The translations under genes and the position numbers were made by a program. Shown here one piece after another: positions 1,469 through 9,273 of a stretch of 10,124 nucleotides of DNA (within the stretch, counting starts at the first letter, position 1; every line of letters begins with the position of its first letter). Under the pieces are notes generated by a model. That model saw only the letters and a list, made by a program, of their open reading frames with translations, ran no database searches and had not been told where the DNA came from. The stretch lies in NCBI GenBank assembly GCA_009840695.1, contig VXNG01000026.1, positions 398 to 10,521 on the forward strand. Direction: 5' to 3'. The DNA comes from Acidimicrobiaceae bacterium (GTDB lineage Bacteria; Actinomycetota; Acidimicrobiia; Acidimicrobiales; Aldehydirespiratoraceae).

Positions 1469-2503
1469 ATGGCCCGAAGGCTCACTGAGTACAGCCACGG
1501 CGCTGGTTGAGCCTGCAAGATCGCTCCGGGCGATCTCGCGCACGTGGTGCGCGGCCTGACCCCTGATCCTCCGCCGGAACTGCTTGTCGGCCTGGCCACC
1601 GGCGATGACGCCGCCGTGTGGCGAATCGGTCGCGGGCGCGCGCTGGTGCTGACCGCCGACTTCATCACGCCGGTGGTGGACGATGCGCGTACCTGGGGCC
1701 GCATCGCGGCCACTAACGCGGTCTCCGACGTGTACGCCATGGGCGGTCGGCCGCTGCTGGCGCTGAACATCGTCGCCTGGAACTCCGAGGAGCTGTCCAC
1801 CGACCTGCTGGCCGAAGTGCTGGCCGGCGGCGAGGACGCCGCCCGGGCCGGCGGTTTCGTGGTGGGCGGCGGACACACGGTCGACGATCCCGAGCCCAAA
1901 TACGGGATGGCCGTGGTGGGCGAGGTCAACCCGGGCCGCATGCTCACCAACGCCGGCCTGCGCCCCGGCAACGCGCTGGTGCTGACCAAACCCCTGGGCA
2001 CCGGGGTCATCTCGACGGCCATCAAGCGGGCCGAGGCCCGCCCGGAGGTGGTGGACCGGGCCGTCGCGGAGATGACCCGGTCCAACGACAAGGCGGCCGA
2101 GGCCGCCATGCGGCACGGCGCCACCGCGGCGACCGACGTGACCGGCTTCGGTCTGCTGGGCCACGGTCTGCGAATGGCTCAGGAGTCCGGGGTCGACCTG
2201 GAGATCTCGGTCGGCGATGTGCCGATCATCGAAGGCACCCGGGAGCTCGTGGGTCTGGGAACGGTTCCCGGCGGGACCCAGCGCAACCTCGACTGGGTGT
2301 CGCCCCACCTGGACACCGGAGACGCCGGCGAATCGTCAGTCACCCTGCTGGCCGACGCGCAGACCTCAGGGGGCCTGCTGCTGGGCATGGTCAGCCACGA
2401 CGCCGGCCTGGCCGCAGTGACCGAGCTGCGAGTATCCGGCCACGAGGCCGCAGTCATAGGAGAAGTCACCGAAGGCACCGGCCGCATCCGCCTGCAGCCC
2501 TGA
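1469..2503 (+). CDS. selD: Selenide, water dikinase (selenophosphate synthetase), itself a selenoprotein
   Basis: SelD makes selenophosphate from selenide and ATP, the selenium donor for Sec-tRNA and selenouridine synthesis. Starting at ATG 1469, after the SD AGAGGGGG, the frame reads MARRLTEYSHGAG, then UGA, then ACKIAPGDL. This lines up with the E. coli N-terminus RLTQYSHGAGCGCK, so the UGA (codon 14) falls on the catalytic Cys17; Cys16 and Lys17 here match E. coli Cys19 and Lys20. Full length is 344 residues, against 347 in E. coli. Other matches are GDDAAV (45-50), TNAVSDVYAMGG (82-93), GGGHTVDDPEPKYG (133-146), DVTGFGLLGH (223-232) and QTSGGLLL (298-305). Read without recoding, the gene would begin at GTG 1544 and lose the catalytic segment. 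Its 3' end is 9 bp from the convergent aldolase gene. No selA, selB or selC is visible nearby. Confidence 0.96.
1508..1510 (+). other. In-frame UGA selenocysteine codon of selD
   Basis: The TGA sits between GGT and GCC in a frame that otherwise runs unbroken from ATG 1469 to the stop at 2501-2503. The residues on both sides are conserved SelD sequence (YSHGAG before, CK shortly after). It occupies the position that is Cys or Sec across the family. Sec at this site is known in other bacterial SelD proteins, for example in Haemophilus influenzae. Confidence 0.93.
1518..1553 (+). promoter_or_regulatory. Candidate bacterial SECIS: two abutting hairpins after the UGA
   Basis: Hairpin 1 pairs AGATCGC (1518-1524) with GCGATCT (1530-1536) around loop TCCGG. 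Hairpin 2 pairs CGCGCAC (1537-1543) with GTGCGCG (1547-1553) around loop GTG. Both stems are 7 bp and perfect, and they abut, so they could stack coaxially. As I recall the general bacterial SECIS model, it asks for an apical loop 16-37 nt after UGA with a G in its first two positions. Hairpin 2 (33 nt after UGA, loop GUG) fits better than hairpin 1 (14 nt, no early G). Which one binds SelB is inference. Confidence 0.65.
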
Positions 2504-4611: not shown

Positions 4612-5511
4612 ATGTCTCAGCAACTGTGCGAGGGCCAGGTTGCGCTGGTGACGGGTGCGAGCAAGGGCGGCACCGGTACGGCCATCGCGCTGCGCCTGGC
4701 CGCCGAGGGAGCTCGGGTGACGATCACGGCCCGCAGCGTCGACGGCCTGGAGGCCACCCAGTCCCGTATCCGCGATCTGGGCGGCGAGTGCCTGGTGCTG
4801 CCTACCGACTTGAGCGACCCGCACGGCGCCCGGACAGAGCTGGTGGCCCGCACTGAGGCCGAGTTCGGTCCTGTCGACATCCTGGTCAACAATGCCGCGG
4901 CCGGCGGCTACGGCCCTTTCGAGTCGGTCGGGCCCGAGCGCCTGGAGAGGGCCCTGCAGGTCAACCTTTGGGCACCGTGGGAGCTGATGGCGGAGGTTGT
5001 CGGAGGGATGCGCGAGCGGGGCCGGGGAGCGATCGTGAACATCACGACGTTCTCGGCGGAGCTCCCGCCGGGTCCGCCGTTCCCGACCAACAAGCCGTCG
5101 AAGGCTGGGGCCATGTATGGAGCGAGCAAGGCCGCGCTGAACCGGCTCACAGTGTCGGTGGCCAGCGAGTGCGAGGGCCAGGGCATCGCAGTGAACGCGC
5201 TGTCGCCCCAGGGGGCCATCGCCACCCCGGCGCTGGTGGCCGCCGGTTGGGTTGAGGGCGTGATGTTCGAGCCGCTGGAGACGATGGCCGAGGCGACGCT
5301 GGCCCTGTGCACCGCCGATCCAGAGGTGCTGACCGGGCGGATCGCCTTCAGCCTGCAACTGCTGGTCGAGCTGCAGCGCCCGGTCCTCGACCTGCGGGGA
5401 GAGGAGTTGTTGGAGGGCTGGCAGCCCGAGGACCTGCCCGGCATCATCGCGCGCCAAGAGGAGAGCCTCGCCGGCCGGGGCTGGCCCGACGCCTACCGCT
5501 TCGGCCGGTGA
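4612..5511 (+). CDS. SDR-family NAD(P)-dependent oxidoreductase (long C-terminal form)
   Basis: The product has 299 residues, about 50 more than a classical short-chain dehydrogenase. The Rossmann motif is TGASKGGTG (14-22), one residue longer than the usual TGxxxGxG. Arg41 after the second strand (TARS) suggests NADP preference. NNAA (93-96) stands for NNAG. The catalytic Tyr169 and Lys173 are in MYGASKAA. At the usual serine position the sequence reads ITTFSAE (144-150), so Thr146 or Ser148 must serve. A proline-rich insert (PPGPPFPTNKP, 152-162) precedes the catalytic Tyr. The C-terminal 60 residues, ending WPDAYRFGR, are extra. ATG 4612 is preferred over an in-frame ATG at 4543 because the Rossmann domain begins 9 residues later. 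The substrate is unknown. Confidence 0.88.
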   Translation: MSQQLCEGQVALVTGASKGGTGTAIALRLAAEGARVTITARSVDGLEATQSRIRDLGGECLVLPTDLSDPHGARTELVARTEAEFGPVDILVNNAAAGGYGPFESVGPERLERALQVNLWAPWELMAEVVGGMRERGRGAIVNITTFSAELPPGPPFPTNKPSKAGAMYGASKAALNRLTVSVASECEGQGIAVNALSPQGAIATPALVAAGWVEGVMFEPLETMAEATLALCTADPEVLTGRIAFSLQLLVELQRPVLDLRGEELLEGWQPEDLPGIIARQEESLAGRGWPDAYRFGR

Positions 5512-5558
5512 ACTTCAAGCGATAAACCACATCAGGTGTGGCTAACTGCTTGAAGTTC
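5510..5558. other. Nested inverted repeat between the first and second SDR genes
   Basis: GAACTTCAAGC (5510-5520) and GCTTGAAGTTC (5548-5558) form a perfect 11-bp stem whose first two bases belong to the stop codon of the first SDR. Inside, CCACA (5527-5531) pairs with TGTGG (5537-5541). The stem can be extended by GGCCG (5559-5563) with CGGCC (5502-5506) across a 3-nt bulge. It has no T-tract. It could be a rho-independent-like stop, an mRNA stabiliser or an operator; the 125-bp gap suggests the next gene has its own promoter. Confidence 0.7.
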
Positions 5559-5636
5559 GGCCGCATCCCGACTCGGCCACCGACAGCGCTCGTGGTGGGC
5601 CATGATGGACACAGCAAGTCCCAACAGAGGAGTCAC

Positions 5637-6374
5637 ATGTTCGATCTGAGCGGACGCACCGCCCTGGTGACCGGAGCGGGTCAGAACATCGGCGCGGGCA
5701 TCGCCCGCGGCTTGGCCACCCAGGGTGCCCATGTCGTCGTCAACGACTACTTCGCCGATCGGGCCCAGGCGACGGCCGGCGAGATCATGGCGGCGGGCGG
5801 GAGCGCGGTTCCCAGCGTCTTCGATGTGACCGACCTCGACGCCGTGCTGGCCGCGGTGGCCGGGATCGGTGTGATCGACATCCTGGTCAACAACGCGGGT
5901 CTGGCCGGCCCGACCGACATGAAGGCGGAGCAGTTCCGCGGCATGGACCCGGCCGACTGGCAGGCTTCGGTCGATGTGAACCTCTACGGGGTCATGAACT
6001 GCTGCCATGCGGTGATCGACGGCATGTGCGAGCGTGGCTGGGGACGCATCATCACCATCTCGTCGGCCGCGGGCACCCACGGCGTGCACATCGGTGTGGC
6101 TCCCTACAGCGCCGGCAAGGGCGGCGGGATGTCCTTCACCCGCACGCTGGCGCTGGAGGTGGCCCGCTTCGGCGTGACGGCCAACACGCTGGCGCTGGGA
6201 CTCTTCGAGCGCAAGAACCGGGAGATAACCGAGCACTTCGCCAGGGCGATTCCCGCGGGACGTACCGGCCGGCCCGAGGATGTGGCCGCCGCCTGCGTCT
6301 GGCTCGCCTCCGACGAGGCCGAATGGGTCACCGCCCAGACCATCGGCATTAACGGCGGCTCACTCACCAGTTGA
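5637..6374 (+). CDS. SDR-family oxidoreductase (FabG-like)
   Basis: The product is 245 residues, a classical short-chain dehydrogenase. The coenzyme motif is TGAGQNIG (12-19), with Asn17 where the second glycine of TGxxxGxG normally stands. Asp37 after the second strand (VVNDY) favours NAD. NNAG is at 85-88, VNLYG at 114-118, the catalytic serine is in ISSAAG (141-146), and Tyr157 and Lys161 are in PYSAGKGG. ATG 5637 is chosen because AGAGGAG (5626-5632) sits just before it; an in-frame ATG at 5538 would start inside the upstream hairpin region and adds unconserved residues. It is followed after 19 bp by the third SDR, so the two are probably cotranscribed. A 3-hydroxyacyl-CoA or alcohol dehydrogenase role is plausible but unproven. 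Confidence 0.9.
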   Translation: MFDLSGRTALVTGAGQNIGAGIARGLATQGAHVVVNDYFADRAQATAGEIMAAGGSAVPSVFDVTDLDAVLAAVAGIGVIDILVNNAGLAGPTDMKAEQFRGMDPADWQASVDVNLYGVMNCCHAVIDGMCERGWGRIITISSAAGTHGVHIGVAPYSAGKGGGMSFTRTLALEVARFGVTANTLALGLFERKNREITEHFARAIPAGRTGRPEDVAAACVWLASDEAEWVTAQTIGINGGSLTS

Positions 6375-6393
6375 CCGCGAGAACGGAGCGACT

Positions 6394-7164
6394 ATGAGAC
6401 TTGAGGGCAAGGTGGCGCTGATCACGGGGACGGCCAGCGGGATCGGGCGGGCCACTGCCCTGCGCTTCGCCGGGGAGGGTGCCCGGGTGGTGGCGGCCGA
6501 CATTGTCGAGGCCAACGACGAGACGGTCGAGATGATCCGTGCGGCCGGGGGCGAGGCCACCGCGGTGCACGCCGACGTGTCCGACGACGCAGAGGTAGCG
6601 CTGGCGGTGAAGACCGCGGAGTCCACTTACGGGCAACTGGACATCGCCTTCAACAACGCCGGAATCATGCTGGCCGACGACGCCGATGCCATCGCGACCA
6701 CCGAGGAGACCATCGACAAGACCCTCGCCGTCAACCTGAAGGGCGTGCTGTATGGGTGCCGGCACCAGATCCCGGCCATGCGCCGGGCCGGCGGTGGCTC
6801 GATCATCAACACGGCGTCGTTTGTGGCGTCGGTGGGCGCGGCCACCCCCCAGATCGCCTACACCGCCTCCAAGGGGGCGGTGCTGTCGCTAACCCGCGAG
6901 CTGGCAGTGATCCACGCCCGGGAGAACATCCGGGTCAACGCCCTGTCGCCGGGGCCGCTGCGCACCGAGTTGCTGATGTCGTACCTCGACACGGACGAGA
7001 AGCGCCAGCGCCGGCTGGTGCACGTGCCCATGGGCCGCTTCGGCGAGGCCACCGAGATGGCCTCGGCCGCGCTGTTCCTGGCCTCCGACGACTCGTCCTA
7101 CATGACCGGCGCCAACCTGCTGGTCGACGGAGGCCTAACCGCCGCCTACGTCACCCCGGAGTAG
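6394..7164 (+). CDS. SDR-family NAD-dependent oxidoreductase
   Basis: This 256-residue classical SDR has all hallmarks: TGTASGIG (11-18), Asp36 at the end of strand 2 (NAD preference), ADVS (60-63), NNAG (87-90), VNLKG (113-117), Ser142 in NTASF, and Tyr156 and Lys160 in AYTASKG. NALSPGPLRTELL (182-194) and the C-terminal DGGLTAAYV complete the fold. ATG 6394 is preceded by CGGAG. The reading frame extends upstream to 6280 inside the second SDR gene, but that part is antiparallel noise. The arrangement with the preceding SDR suggests sequential oxidation or reduction of related substrates. The gene converges on the hypothetical gene ending at 7186. Confidence 0.92.
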   Translation: MRLEGKVALITGTASGIGRATALRFAGEGARVVAADIVEANDETVEMIRAAGGEATAVHADVSDDAEVALAVKTAESTYGQLDIAFNNAGIMLADDADAIATTEETIDKTLAVNLKGVLYGCRHQIPAMRRAGGGSIINTASFVASVGAATPQIAYTASKGAVLSLTRELAVIHARENIRVNALSPGPLRTELLMSYLDTDEKRQRRLVHVPMGRFGEATEMASAALFLASDDSSYMTGANLLVDGGLTAAYVTPE

Positions 7165-7185
7165 GCGGCGGCGACGGCCGCTCTG

Positions 7186-7653
7186 TCAGGCCTCGTCGGG
7201 CCCCCTTGGGTCGCTCTGCCCAGCGGTCGCCGATCCGGCGTACCTCTCGAAACTCTCGTCCTTCGCCAGTAGGTCCTCCAGGCAGGCGACGGCCACCACG
7301 GCATCCGTGTAGCCGTTCTGGATGGCTCTGGCCACCAGTTCCTCAAGTGACGGTCTGCATGCGTACGGATCGAATCCGGCAGCCTCTTCCGTGAACTCGA
7401 TGAACTCTTCCGCGAACCGACGCTCCTTGCTGTTGAGGCAGTCCATTGATGGGGGCTCGACCCGGCAACCCTCAAGATAGTCGAGGTAAGCCGAGCGGAA
7501 CATTGCGAGGTTGTCCTGCAGGCAACTCTCGGGCAGCCCCCACGCCTGTTCGGTCCATGCTTGCGATGTACCAGTCGGCGGTCCAGCGGCATCCCCTCCG
7601 GGGCTCGCGCCACCTTCCGGCCTTGTTGTAGACACTTGGCACCGTTCCCTCAA
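7186..7653 (-). CDS. Hypothetical protein, 155 aa, last gene of the sigma-factor cassette
   Basis: I do not recognise a family. The first 30 residues are Gly/Pro/Thr-rich and probably disordered. Residues about 43-140 look like a soluble, acidic, mainly helical domain (SERRF-like KERRFAEEFIEFTEE at 76-90, SLEELVARAIQNGY at 102-115, AVACLEDLLAKDESFERY at 121-138). Cysteines lie at 5, 44, 63, 72, 99 and 124. A TTG start at 7653 is supported by the TTGA overlap with the upstream small ORF. GTG 7635 (residue 7) is an alternative, with GAGGGAA upstream. This frame is preferred over a same-strand competitor because it is richer in ordinary hydrophobic and charged patterning. Its position suggests a partner or target of the sigma-factor system, which is inference. 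Confidence 0.62.
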   Translation of the reverse strand: MRERCQVSTTRPEGGASPGGDAAGPPTGTSQAWTEQAWGLPESCLQDNLAMFRSAYLDYLEGCRVEPPSMDCLNSKERRFAEEFIEFTEEAAGFDPYACRPSLEELVARAIQNGYTDAVVAVACLEDLLAKDESFERYAGSATAGQSDPRGPDEA

Positions 7654-7772
7654 TCACGGCAACCCCGCGGCGGATGGGTCCTTGCCGCGCGATAGAGCGG
7701 CGCATCGAGTGTCACGACTCGACAGTGCGGGGTCAGCCCAAGAGCTGAGTGATTGATGGGATGCATTATCAT
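7650..7772 (-). CDS. Possible 40-residue small protein between the sigma and hypothetical genes
   Basis: ATG ATA ATG at 7772-7764 follows the purine run AAAAAAGGAAAGGA. The second ATG (7766) has AAAGGA at an ideal 6-nt gap. The frame runs 40 codons with no membrane segment and two cysteines, ending RGCRD, and its TGA overlaps the TTG of the next gene by 4 nt (TTGA). The strong ribosome-binding site, the overlap and the location between two co-oriented genes support translation. The sequence itself matches nothing I know. It could be a coupling leader ORF or a small regulator. Confidence 0.42.
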   Translation of the reverse strand: MIMHPINHSALGLTPHCRVVTLDAPLYRAARTHPPRGCRD

Positions 7773-7788
7773 TCCTTTCCTTTTTTCT

Positions 7789-7805
7789 TCAGGAGTTTCT
7801 CCTGA
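7789..7805 (-). other. Short perfect hairpin and A-rich tract ahead of the small ORF
   Basis: TCAGGAG (7789-7795) and CTCCTGA (7799-7805) form a 7-bp stem with a 3-nt loop. In minus-strand sense it is followed by AAGAAAAAAGG, which leads into the SD of the small ORF. It lies 13 bp after the sigma stop codon. The tract after the stem is A, not T, in transcription direction, so it is not an intrinsic terminator for the sigma transcript. It could be an RNA processing site that leaves a strong SD exposed. In plus-strand sense a T-tract precedes the stem. Confidence 0.5.
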
Positions 7806-7818
7806 GTATTCGACCTCT

Positions 7819-8457
7819 CTAGTCGTTCCTGTATGGATTCCTAGGATCGCTCTCGAGCCTGCGCAAGATCTGCTCATATCTTTGGCCGATCCGTTGGCCG
7901 GTGAGCCCCAGCTCGTCAGCAATGCTCTTCCTTGTCCGCCGCAGGTGCATGATCTGCACGAACAGCCAGCGCTCGTCCGTCGTTAACAGTTCACGAATGA
8001 GCCCCTCCATCTGCTGAGCTCGCAGATTCCCTAGTGCTTCCTCCTCGGTGTCGGCCTTCGGGTCAGGGCGCTCATAGTCGCGTCGTGCCAGTGCGTCAGC
8101 GGACACCACCGTGAGTTCGGATCGAGCTTCGGTCGCCTTCAAGCCCTTGTTGGCACGATCGAGGGCGTCCTTCGACTTGTTGTCGGCCATGCTGTTGGCG
8201 AGCGGTGTCCATTCCTCGTGGCGGTCTTCGCTCTGAGTCGCGGCGTGTGTCAACAGATCCTGGAACACCTCTTGCAGCACATCTTCGACACTTACTCCCC
8301 CGCGGATGCTTGGCTCACTGCTCCCCCGACCTCGTGGCGGCCCTTTCCCCTTGAAGAGAACCTTCTTGATCCTGTCGTGAACGCGGTCGAGAATCGTGTC
8401 GAGACGGTCGCTATCCGATAAGAGAGGGTGTCCTTCGTAGGAGTCGGCTAGCGCCAC
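7819..8457 (-). CDS. ECF-like RNA polymerase sigma factor (sigma-70 family)
   Basis: This 212-residue protein has the two-domain layout of group 4 sigma factors. The sigma-2 part spans about 18-105, with SVEDVLQEVFQDLL (56-69) matching the region 2.2 pattern (DxxQEVF) and LANSMADNKSKDALDRANK (87-105) matching regions 2.3-2.4. A charged linker (110-145) follows. Sigma-4 spans about 148-202, with the helix-turn-helix in KSIADELGLTGQRIGQRYEQILRRL (177-201). The insert KGKGPPRGRGSSEPSIRGG (36-54) between helices of region 2 is unusual. The start is GTG 8457, backed by AGGGAGGAGG just upstream. No recognisable anti-sigma factor lies next to it; the hypothetical protein downstream or the GRDP-like protein upstream are candidates by position only. 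Two copies of a CCCWWATCGG-like motif stand in front. Confidence 0.82.
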   Translation of the reverse strand: MALADSYEGHPLLSDSDRLDTILDRVHDRIKKVLFKGKGPPRGRGSSEPSIRGGVSVEDVLQEVFQDLLTHAATQSEDRHEEWTPLANSMADNKSKDALDRANKGLKATEARSELTVVSADALARRDYERPDPKADTEEEALGNLRAQQMEGLIRELLTTDERWLFVQIMHLRRTRKSIADELGLTGQRIGQRYEQILRRLESDPRNPYRND

Positions 8458-8467
8458 ATGTCCTCCT

Positions 8468-8497
8468 CCCTAATCGGTGTTCCATACCCCTTATCGG
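8468..8497 (-). promoter_or_regulatory. Pair of 10-bp direct repeats in front of the sigma gene
   Basis: On the plus strand CCCTAATCGG (8468-8477) and CCCTTATCGG (8488-8497) differ at one base and are spaced 20 bp apart, two turns of the helix. A third relative, CCCATATCGG (9203-9212), precedes the GRDP-like gene. CCGATAAGAG at 8415-8424, inside the sigma gene and in the opposite orientation, is 9 of 10 like the complement. The proximal copy touches the sigma gene's ribosome-binding site. This fits an operator or a sigma-specific promoter element for autoregulation (inference). Confidence 0.45.
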
Positions 8498-8573
8498 AAT
8501 TGGCCGGCGCGACGAAAGGGACTTGATTGGACTGTCCCGATCGATTCCGGTTACAGGAGGAGCCTCGACGAGA

Positions 8574-9176
8574 TCAGTAGGGTGGCCTCGGCGTGCACTT
8601 GCAGGTCCCCGTGCATGTGTCAACCATGCACTCTTGGCCGTCGCAGGCCTTGCCCATCAGGCTGCCCGTCATCTCCCAGAACTCTGGATCGTAGGGGATC
8701 CCACTGGCCCGGAAAGCATGAATGGTCGCTCCGAGCCCGCCTCGATCCTGCTGGCTCGGGTGGTCGAACGGCTCGTGATGAATCAGTCCGCTCGCGCCGA
8801 GGTTCTGGCAGAGTTCTGCGTACTGGCGTGTGTGGAGAATCGTGGCGTGCCAAGCGGCATCGACAATGGGAGTCGGTGACAGGGGCACTGCCGAGTCGAC
8901 GCAGAGGCCAAGGAACGCCCAAGCCTCGTTGACTGCTCGCACAGCGAGAGGTCCCTCGAACCCCTCTTTCACCAGTCGCCACACCGTCCGATCGAACAGG
9001 ACCGGGTGATGCTTGCGCCTGTCGGCGTGGCAAGTGTGGACCTTGGCCGCCTCAAGCAGCTCGCTGGCAGTCGGACCGGCATCGAGCGTCGTAGACGCTC
9101 CGCGGGCGCAGGTCGGGTCGGGTCCGGTGCGGCAATCCGACGCTCGGGGGAGACATGTCGCGATGTTGTTGGCCAT
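8574..9176 (-). CDS. GRDP-like (DUF1399-type) protein with cysteine-rich C-terminus
   Basis: The product has 200 residues. The core VDAAWHATILHTRQYAELC (105-123) followed by LIHHEP (131-136) matches the VDxxWHxHIL-TxxYxxxC...HHxP signature of proteins related to plant glycine-rich domain proteins, also found singly in bacteria; the biochemical role is unknown. Upstream, VNEAWAFLGLCVDSAVPLSPTP (82-103) also fits the family. Beyond the core, GIPYDPEFWE (159-168) is followed by a cysteine cluster (Cys178, 183, 188, 192, 194) that could bind metal; further cysteines lie at 8, 15, 23, 49, 92 and 123. No signal peptide or membrane segment is seen. ATG 9176 is chosen over TTG 9182 because GAAGGAG lies 7 nt before it. 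It is first in the cassette, 116 bp before the sigma gene. Confidence 0.68.
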   Translation of the reverse strand: MANNIATCLPRASDCRTGPDPTCARGASTTLDAGPTASELLEAAKVHTCHADRRKHHPVLFDRTVWRLVKEGFEGPLAVRAVNEAWAFLGLCVDSAVPLSPTPIVDAAWHATILHTRQYAELCQNLGASGLIHHEPFDHPSQQDRGGLGATIHAFRASGIPYDPEFWEMTGSLMGKACDGQECMVDTCTGTCKCTPRPPY

Positions 9177-9202
9177 TTCCAAGCTCCTTCGTTGGGTGTA
9201 TG

Positions 9203-9212
9203 CCCATATCGG
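9203..9212 (-). promoter_or_regulatory. CCCATATCGG motif upstream of the GRDP-like gene
   Basis: This is the third copy of the 10-bp motif found twice before the sigma gene. With two flanking bases, TTCCGATAnGGG in minus sense is shared with the distal sigma copy. It lies 26 bp before ATG 9176. The shared element suggests both genes respond to the same regulator, possibly this sigma factor. Confidence 0.4.
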
Positions 9213-9273
9213 AAATCAGGCCCGTCCTGAAAGAGGTTCGGAACAAGCGGCGTTGTAGCCGCTGGCCGCGGCG

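Follow-up and report, generated by a model that had tools for sequence, protein, structure and literature searches.

An Acidimicrobiaceae selD gene with an in-frame UGA at the catalytic position, probably read as selenocysteine, and a covarying hairpin downstream

Selenophosphate synthetases that contain selenocysteine (Sec-SelD) have long been known, as the available portions of four papers describe (PMC4561486, PMC1794560, PMC13188914, PMC2398784). According to a 2015 survey of 223 reference prokaryotes, 19% of the SelD genes that it detected carry Sec, always at the site considered here (PMC4561486). A sequence-only reading of the DNA studied here had stated that such proteins occur in some bacteria. 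The published model of the bacterial SECIS comprises a stem of 4 to 16 bp and a loop of 3 to 9 nt with a folding energy of at most −7.5 kcal/mol; the loop has a G within its first two positions and lies 16 to 37 nt past the UGA (PMC13188914). Regarding the class Acidimicrobiia, a study of sponge symbiont bins of various phyla, which include Acidimicrobiia, found SelA and SelB in most bins, according to the available part of its text (PMC5649159). A 2025 method paper in which SelD was checked counts 83,103 Sec-using organisms, and the portion of its main text at hand does not name the class (PMC12013277). No Sec survey naming Acidimicrobiia with selenocysteine was found in the literature searched, the supplements of which may hold an earlier notice, and a search for streamlined marine actinobacteria or actinomarin in combination with seleno returned nothing relevant.

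We analyzed a window of 10,124 nucleotides (i.e., the whole stretch of DNA under study; contig VXNG01000026.1 of assembly GCA_009840695.1) from an Acidimicrobiaceae bacterium. A frame on the forward strand at 1469 to 2503 contains two TGA codons, one at 1508 to 1510 (residue 14) and the other as the terminal stop at 2501 to 2503. When translated through the first of these, the product of 344 residues scored 368 bits against TIGR00476 (cut-off, 125), which identifies it as SelD, and 345 bits against NF002098 (cut-off, 299); it also contains the AIRS (PF00586) and AIRS_C (PF02769) domains. The curated score and the domains thus confirmed the initial proposal that the frame opened by ATG 1469 passes the TGA into SelD. 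Upstream of this ATG lies GAGAGGGGGTGACAGCG, likely its ribosome site. We consider it highly probable (about 0.96) that this gene, selD, encodes a selenophosphate synthetase with selenocysteine at the catalytic position.

The segment RLTEYSHGAG-U-ACK aligned with SHGAGCGCK of the solved SelD 3u0o, placing residue 14 on residue 17 of the latter. We take 3u0o to be the E. coli SelD and its Cys17 to be the catalytic residue. The aligned site was TGA in 47, TGC in 23, and TGT in 10 of 80 related loci, a sample that is not neutral because a Cys was demanded by one of the six patterns used to collect it; one locus counted as TGC (L052) is not truly aligned at the UGA site and was excluded from the hairpin sets and the tree described below. 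The nearest five loci (L001 to L005), with 86 to 95% protein identity to the window SelD, all have TGA. Two claims of the sequence-only reading were therefore upheld by the 3u0o alignment, i.e., that the conserved N-terminal motif flanks the UGA and that the UGA replaces the catalytic Cys; the comparison with Cys- and Sec-type SelD genes supports the latter as well, since the aligned loci without TGA have Cys codons. In two other UGA-containing SelD genes (L007, 10040; L053, 10037), the second Cys is replaced by Ser or Ala (U-GSK and U-GAK), which shows that a Cys two positions past the Sec is not invariably kept.

Both sides of the UGA appear to be translated in one frame, as indicated by low diversity at the first two codon positions and an excess of synonymous differences. 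Across the 48 TGA genes (window included), diversity at codon positions 1, 2, and 3 was 0.125, 0.030, and 0.408 in the ten codons before the UGA and 0.137, 0.068, and 0.427 in the eleven codons after it. Differing codon pairs were synonymous in 4,492 cases and nonsynonymous in 1,170 before the UGA; after the UGA, the excess was modest (3,722 versus 2,962).

These data bear on an alternative in which translation truly terminates at the UGA, leaving a 13-residue leader, and SelD starts anew at GTG 1544 (1544 to 1546) without the catalytic residue. ORF calling with table 11 does yield that ORF, with a product of 319 aa, and most of the database proteins listed are of such a length. However, just 12 of the 48 TGA genes have GTG at 1544; the other 36 have GTC, GTT, or GTA there, so this GTG is not a conserved start. 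The residues between the UGA and the GTG are conserved, including a Lys aligned with 3u0o, and their variation is mostly at third positions, whereas a restarted product would be devoid of the active-site segment. We regard this alternative as highly unlikely; that the UGA at 1508 to 1510 is decoded as selenocysteine and not as a stop, in this gene as in many of its relatives, is all but certain.

The claim that standard gene calling begins at GTG 1544 and loses the active site was correct, as the 319-aa ORF demonstrates. Among the 120 database homologues listed of 8,000 scored, query coverage was at most 92% and lengths were mostly 303 to 319 aa, as expected if these proteins had likewise been called from downstream of the UGA. 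By these lengths and coverages, truncation of the active site looks systematic: automated annotation loses the active site of SelD.

A candidate bacterial SECIS is located at 1538 to 1552 on the forward strand, with the stem GCGCA(C)/(G)UGCGC and a loop around the GU at 1544 to 1545. The hairpin can be drawn as 5 bp with the loop CGUGG or as 6 bp with the loop GUG, and it conforms to the published model with −8.1 kcal/mol. It spans 28 to 42 nt past the UGA, with 32 to 33 nt between the UGA and the loop, which occupies nt 33 to 37. The GTG called as a start thus sits inside the loop; the earlier reading had mentioned neither the SECIS nor this placement of the GTG.

We examined the conservation of this hairpin in 42 distinct sequences from the 48 TGA rows (window included) and in 32 Cys rows, with a null model in which synonymous codons were shuffled among rows sharing the amino acid (2,000 trials). 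In the TGA genes, 232 of 252 cells were paired, versus 213.3 (standard deviation, 2.8) after shuffling, and none of the 2,000 shuffles was as high; in the Cys sequences, 80 of 192 cells were paired and 767 of the 2,000 shuffles were as high (these counts are not probabilities because related sequences are not independent). All five core pairs were complete in 37 of the 42 TGA genes versus none of the 32 Cys genes. Pairing of the five core pairs in the TGA genes, 97.6% in register, fell to 10.5 to 67.6% when the partner was slid by 1 to 3 bases. The pair formed by the bases 30 and 40 nt past the UGA was GC in 27 rows, CG in 6, TA in 6, and TG in 1, with 2 rows unpaired; the base at 30 nt usually closes an Ala codon, and the one at 40 nt usually opens a codon for Arg, Gly, or Ser. 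An energy of −7.5 kcal/mol was reached at this place in 34 of the 42 TGA genes, the remaining 8 falling short of this value of the SECIS model, and in 1 of the 32 Cys genes. The loop GU was present in all 42 TGA genes and also in 25 of the 32 Cys genes, and for that reason it proves nothing by itself. In summary, the hairpin covaries in the UGA genes only and not in the Cys genes.

A second hairpin, AGAUCGCU/GGCGAUCU at 1518 to 1536 on the forward strand, is less well supported as a conserved RNA element. In the TGA genes, 84.2% of its cells were paired, a value equaled by 74 of the 2,000 codon shuffles, and slid partners reduced pairing to 21 to 36%. It is the less likely SECIS: neither of the first two positions of its loop is a G, its pairing is nearly explained by the shuffle, and the hairpin at 1538 to 1552 is preferred on both counts. 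Folding of the single sequence produced both hairpins (z, −1.72; 11 of 200 shuffles as good). An Rfam scan of the window gave no match above the gathering score, and ARAGORN detected no tRNA in it.

Around selD, the window is collinear with three related loci (L001 to L003; 88 to 92% DNA identity). A nitronate monooxygenase-like gene is encoded on the reverse strand at 157 to 1335, and beyond its 3′ end, at 1 to 127, lie two identical 55-nt direct repeats spaced 72 nt from start to start. Three consecutive short-chain dehydrogenase (SDR) genes, identified by domain search, occupy 4612 to 7161 on the forward strand within DNA collinear in the same three loci. The following segment of approximately 2.1 kb (7165 to 9257) is missing from these loci, which have 0 to 150 bases in its place. 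Its reverse strand carries a weak sigma-70-like ORF (7819 to 8457; TIGR02937, 29 bits, below the cut-off) and two ORFs without a significant Pfam match (7186 to 7653 and 8574 to 9182), the latter with a Cys-rich C terminus.

Two of the collinear loci, L001 and L002, belong to Acidimicrobiaceae MAGs (genomes G001 and G002) with SelD identities of 94 to 95%. In G001, selA adjoins selB, and the genome also contains a tRNA-Sec with a tca anticodon and an FdhA-like gene in which a single TGA occurs. G002 has a tRNA-Sec with tca, an FdhA-like gene that likewise contains a single TGA, and a selA that is truncated at the end of its contig. The profile search found no SelB over the cut-off in this fragmented genome, likely an assembly gap, although not proven to be one, because selA meets the contig end where G001 has selB. 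For a broader view, we used samples of 50 of the 80 loci for tRNA-Sec, 27 genomes for SelA and SelB, and 30 genomes for the FdhA-like gene. A tRNA-Sec match of at least 58.8 bits was present in 45 of the 50 genomes (46 at the cut-off of 47 bits) and in 29 of the 32 with TGA-SelD; the other three (G004, G027, and G038) had no match of at least 58.8 bits. The anticodon was tca in all five of the relatives' tRNA-Sec genes scanned. SelA was detected in 27 of 27 genomes and SelB over the cut-off in 26. Weak matches to RF01852 and SelB were rejected as evidence, given that the same arose in control genomes (e.g., Bacillus subtilis), and only strong or over-cut-off matches were counted. An FdhA-like match with one TGA was found in 26 of the 30 genomes, none over the TIGR01591 cut-off, and the UGA site read NNIDSCNRT-U-HAPSV in 23 of the 25 loci examined, the remaining two having either escaped the filter or no such motif. 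In the G001 gene, a 6-bp hairpin with a GGUCU loop follows the UGA. As a separate observation, tRNAs with a cta anticodon occur in the genomes of two Blastococcus loci (L106 and L095); they score 66 to 68 bits against the Rfam model of tRNA-Sec, and ARAGORN classifies them as tRNA-Pyl. A UAG-reading tRNA-Sec in the Blastococcus group has reportedly been published.

By analogy with these relatives, the host itself presumably possesses the Sec machinery. SelB and Sec-tRNA-Sec(UCA) would then act with the mRNA hairpin at 1538 to 1552, which SelB would bind, and the UGA at 1508 to 1510 would be decoded as Sec and appear in the protein. SelD would in turn supply the selenophosphate with which SelA makes more Sec-tRNA; as SelA needs this selenophosphate, SelD would depend on its own product.

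That the UGA is decoded as some other amino acid, whether through near-cognate suppression or through an altered code, is barely credible. The aligned loci alternate with Cys and never with Trp or another residue, and tRNA-Sec(UCA), SelA, and SelB occur in the relatives. Moreover, TGA serves as the stop codon of selD itself (2501 to 2503) and of two SDR ORFs (with ends at 5511 and 6374), which means that UGA has not been reassigned throughout. A sequencing error or a pseudogene can be dismissed, for while a one-base change of TGC to TGA would look alike in a single sequence, TGA occurs in 47 other loci, including the nearest five, independent assemblies contradict an error, and the remaining selD frame is open and conserved.

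We also surveyed 395 genomes of the class to which G001 belongs, 276 of which had SelD over the cut-off. With a SelD site motif of the same shape, TGA was found in 185 genomes and TGC or TGT in 63; a stricter TGC/TGT pattern, requiring a Cys also two codons on, matched 48, and all of these tallies include chance hits. The TGA pattern is looser behind the codon than the 48-genome pattern, so that 63 is its same-shaped counterpart. Chance hits include, for TGA, G075 and G373 and, for TGC/TGT, G168 and the majority of the 15 genomes added by the looser pattern. One genome (G267) matches both patterns, and another (G277) has two SelD genes with one TGA each. Because the tallies sum to less than 276, a few dozen genomes with SelD match neither pattern. 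Given that annotation drops the active site and that UGA is the commoner SelD state in this class sample, Sec use there is easily missed.

Small genomes (0.6 to 1.1 Mb) with TGA-SelD were considered as a set of 15 (G074, G090, G097, G133, G137, G209, G082, G078, G061, G193, G086, G109, G144, G197, and G186). All 15 had a tRNA-Sec at about 75 bits, with tca in all eight scanned, and 11 had a near full-length match to the SelB model, in every case below the cut-off. None of the 15 had an FdhA match at an E value of 1e-30. Ten of the SelD regions were folded and formed hairpins behind the UGA, which were less regular. As Sec-SelD and tRNA-Sec are kept in these genomes without an FdhA match, SelD may help to keep the Sec trait alive there.

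A quick tree of 96 SelD sequences (53 Sec and 43 Cys) required a minimum of four Sec/Cys changes. The main Sec clade (47 Sec and 2 Cys, the latter being L008 and L050) was nested inside Cys groups with node support of 90 to 98, and the counts were nine events for loss only and seven for gain only. Several long branches in this tree were flagged and its sampling is biased, and repeated Sec loss is for these reasons at least as likely as gain. A 2006 survey records no Cys-to-Sec event in SelD (PMC1794560). A gain or regain of Sec in the main Acidimicrobiia clade, starting from a Cys form and accompanied by a SECIS newly built into the coding sequence unusually far from the UGA, seems doubtful.

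The window selD shares with the known Sec-SelD/SPS2 its family, the replaced residue, the in-frame UGA, and the downstream hairpin, and it differs from them in taxon (i.e., Acidimicrobiia). Sec-SelD being a well-known kind, we regard this gene as a further member of that kind. Cys-SelD proteins, both those of the 3u0o type and those from other Actinobacteria, belong to the same family and have the same motif (SHGAG-x-xCK), but a Cys codon takes the place of the UGA and the complete set of five core hairpin pairs is absent from all of the Cys sequences. Relative to the published SECIS model, the loop in the window selD lies near the far end of the 16- to 37-nt range. The FdhA-like gene of the relatives resembles selD in having an in-frame UGA and, in G001, a hairpin behind it; the loop of that hairpin, however, lies 19 to 23 nt past the UGA, i.e., about 14 nt closer. 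The distant loop of selD and the closer FdhA-like loop in G001 thus offer a test of the working range of SelB.
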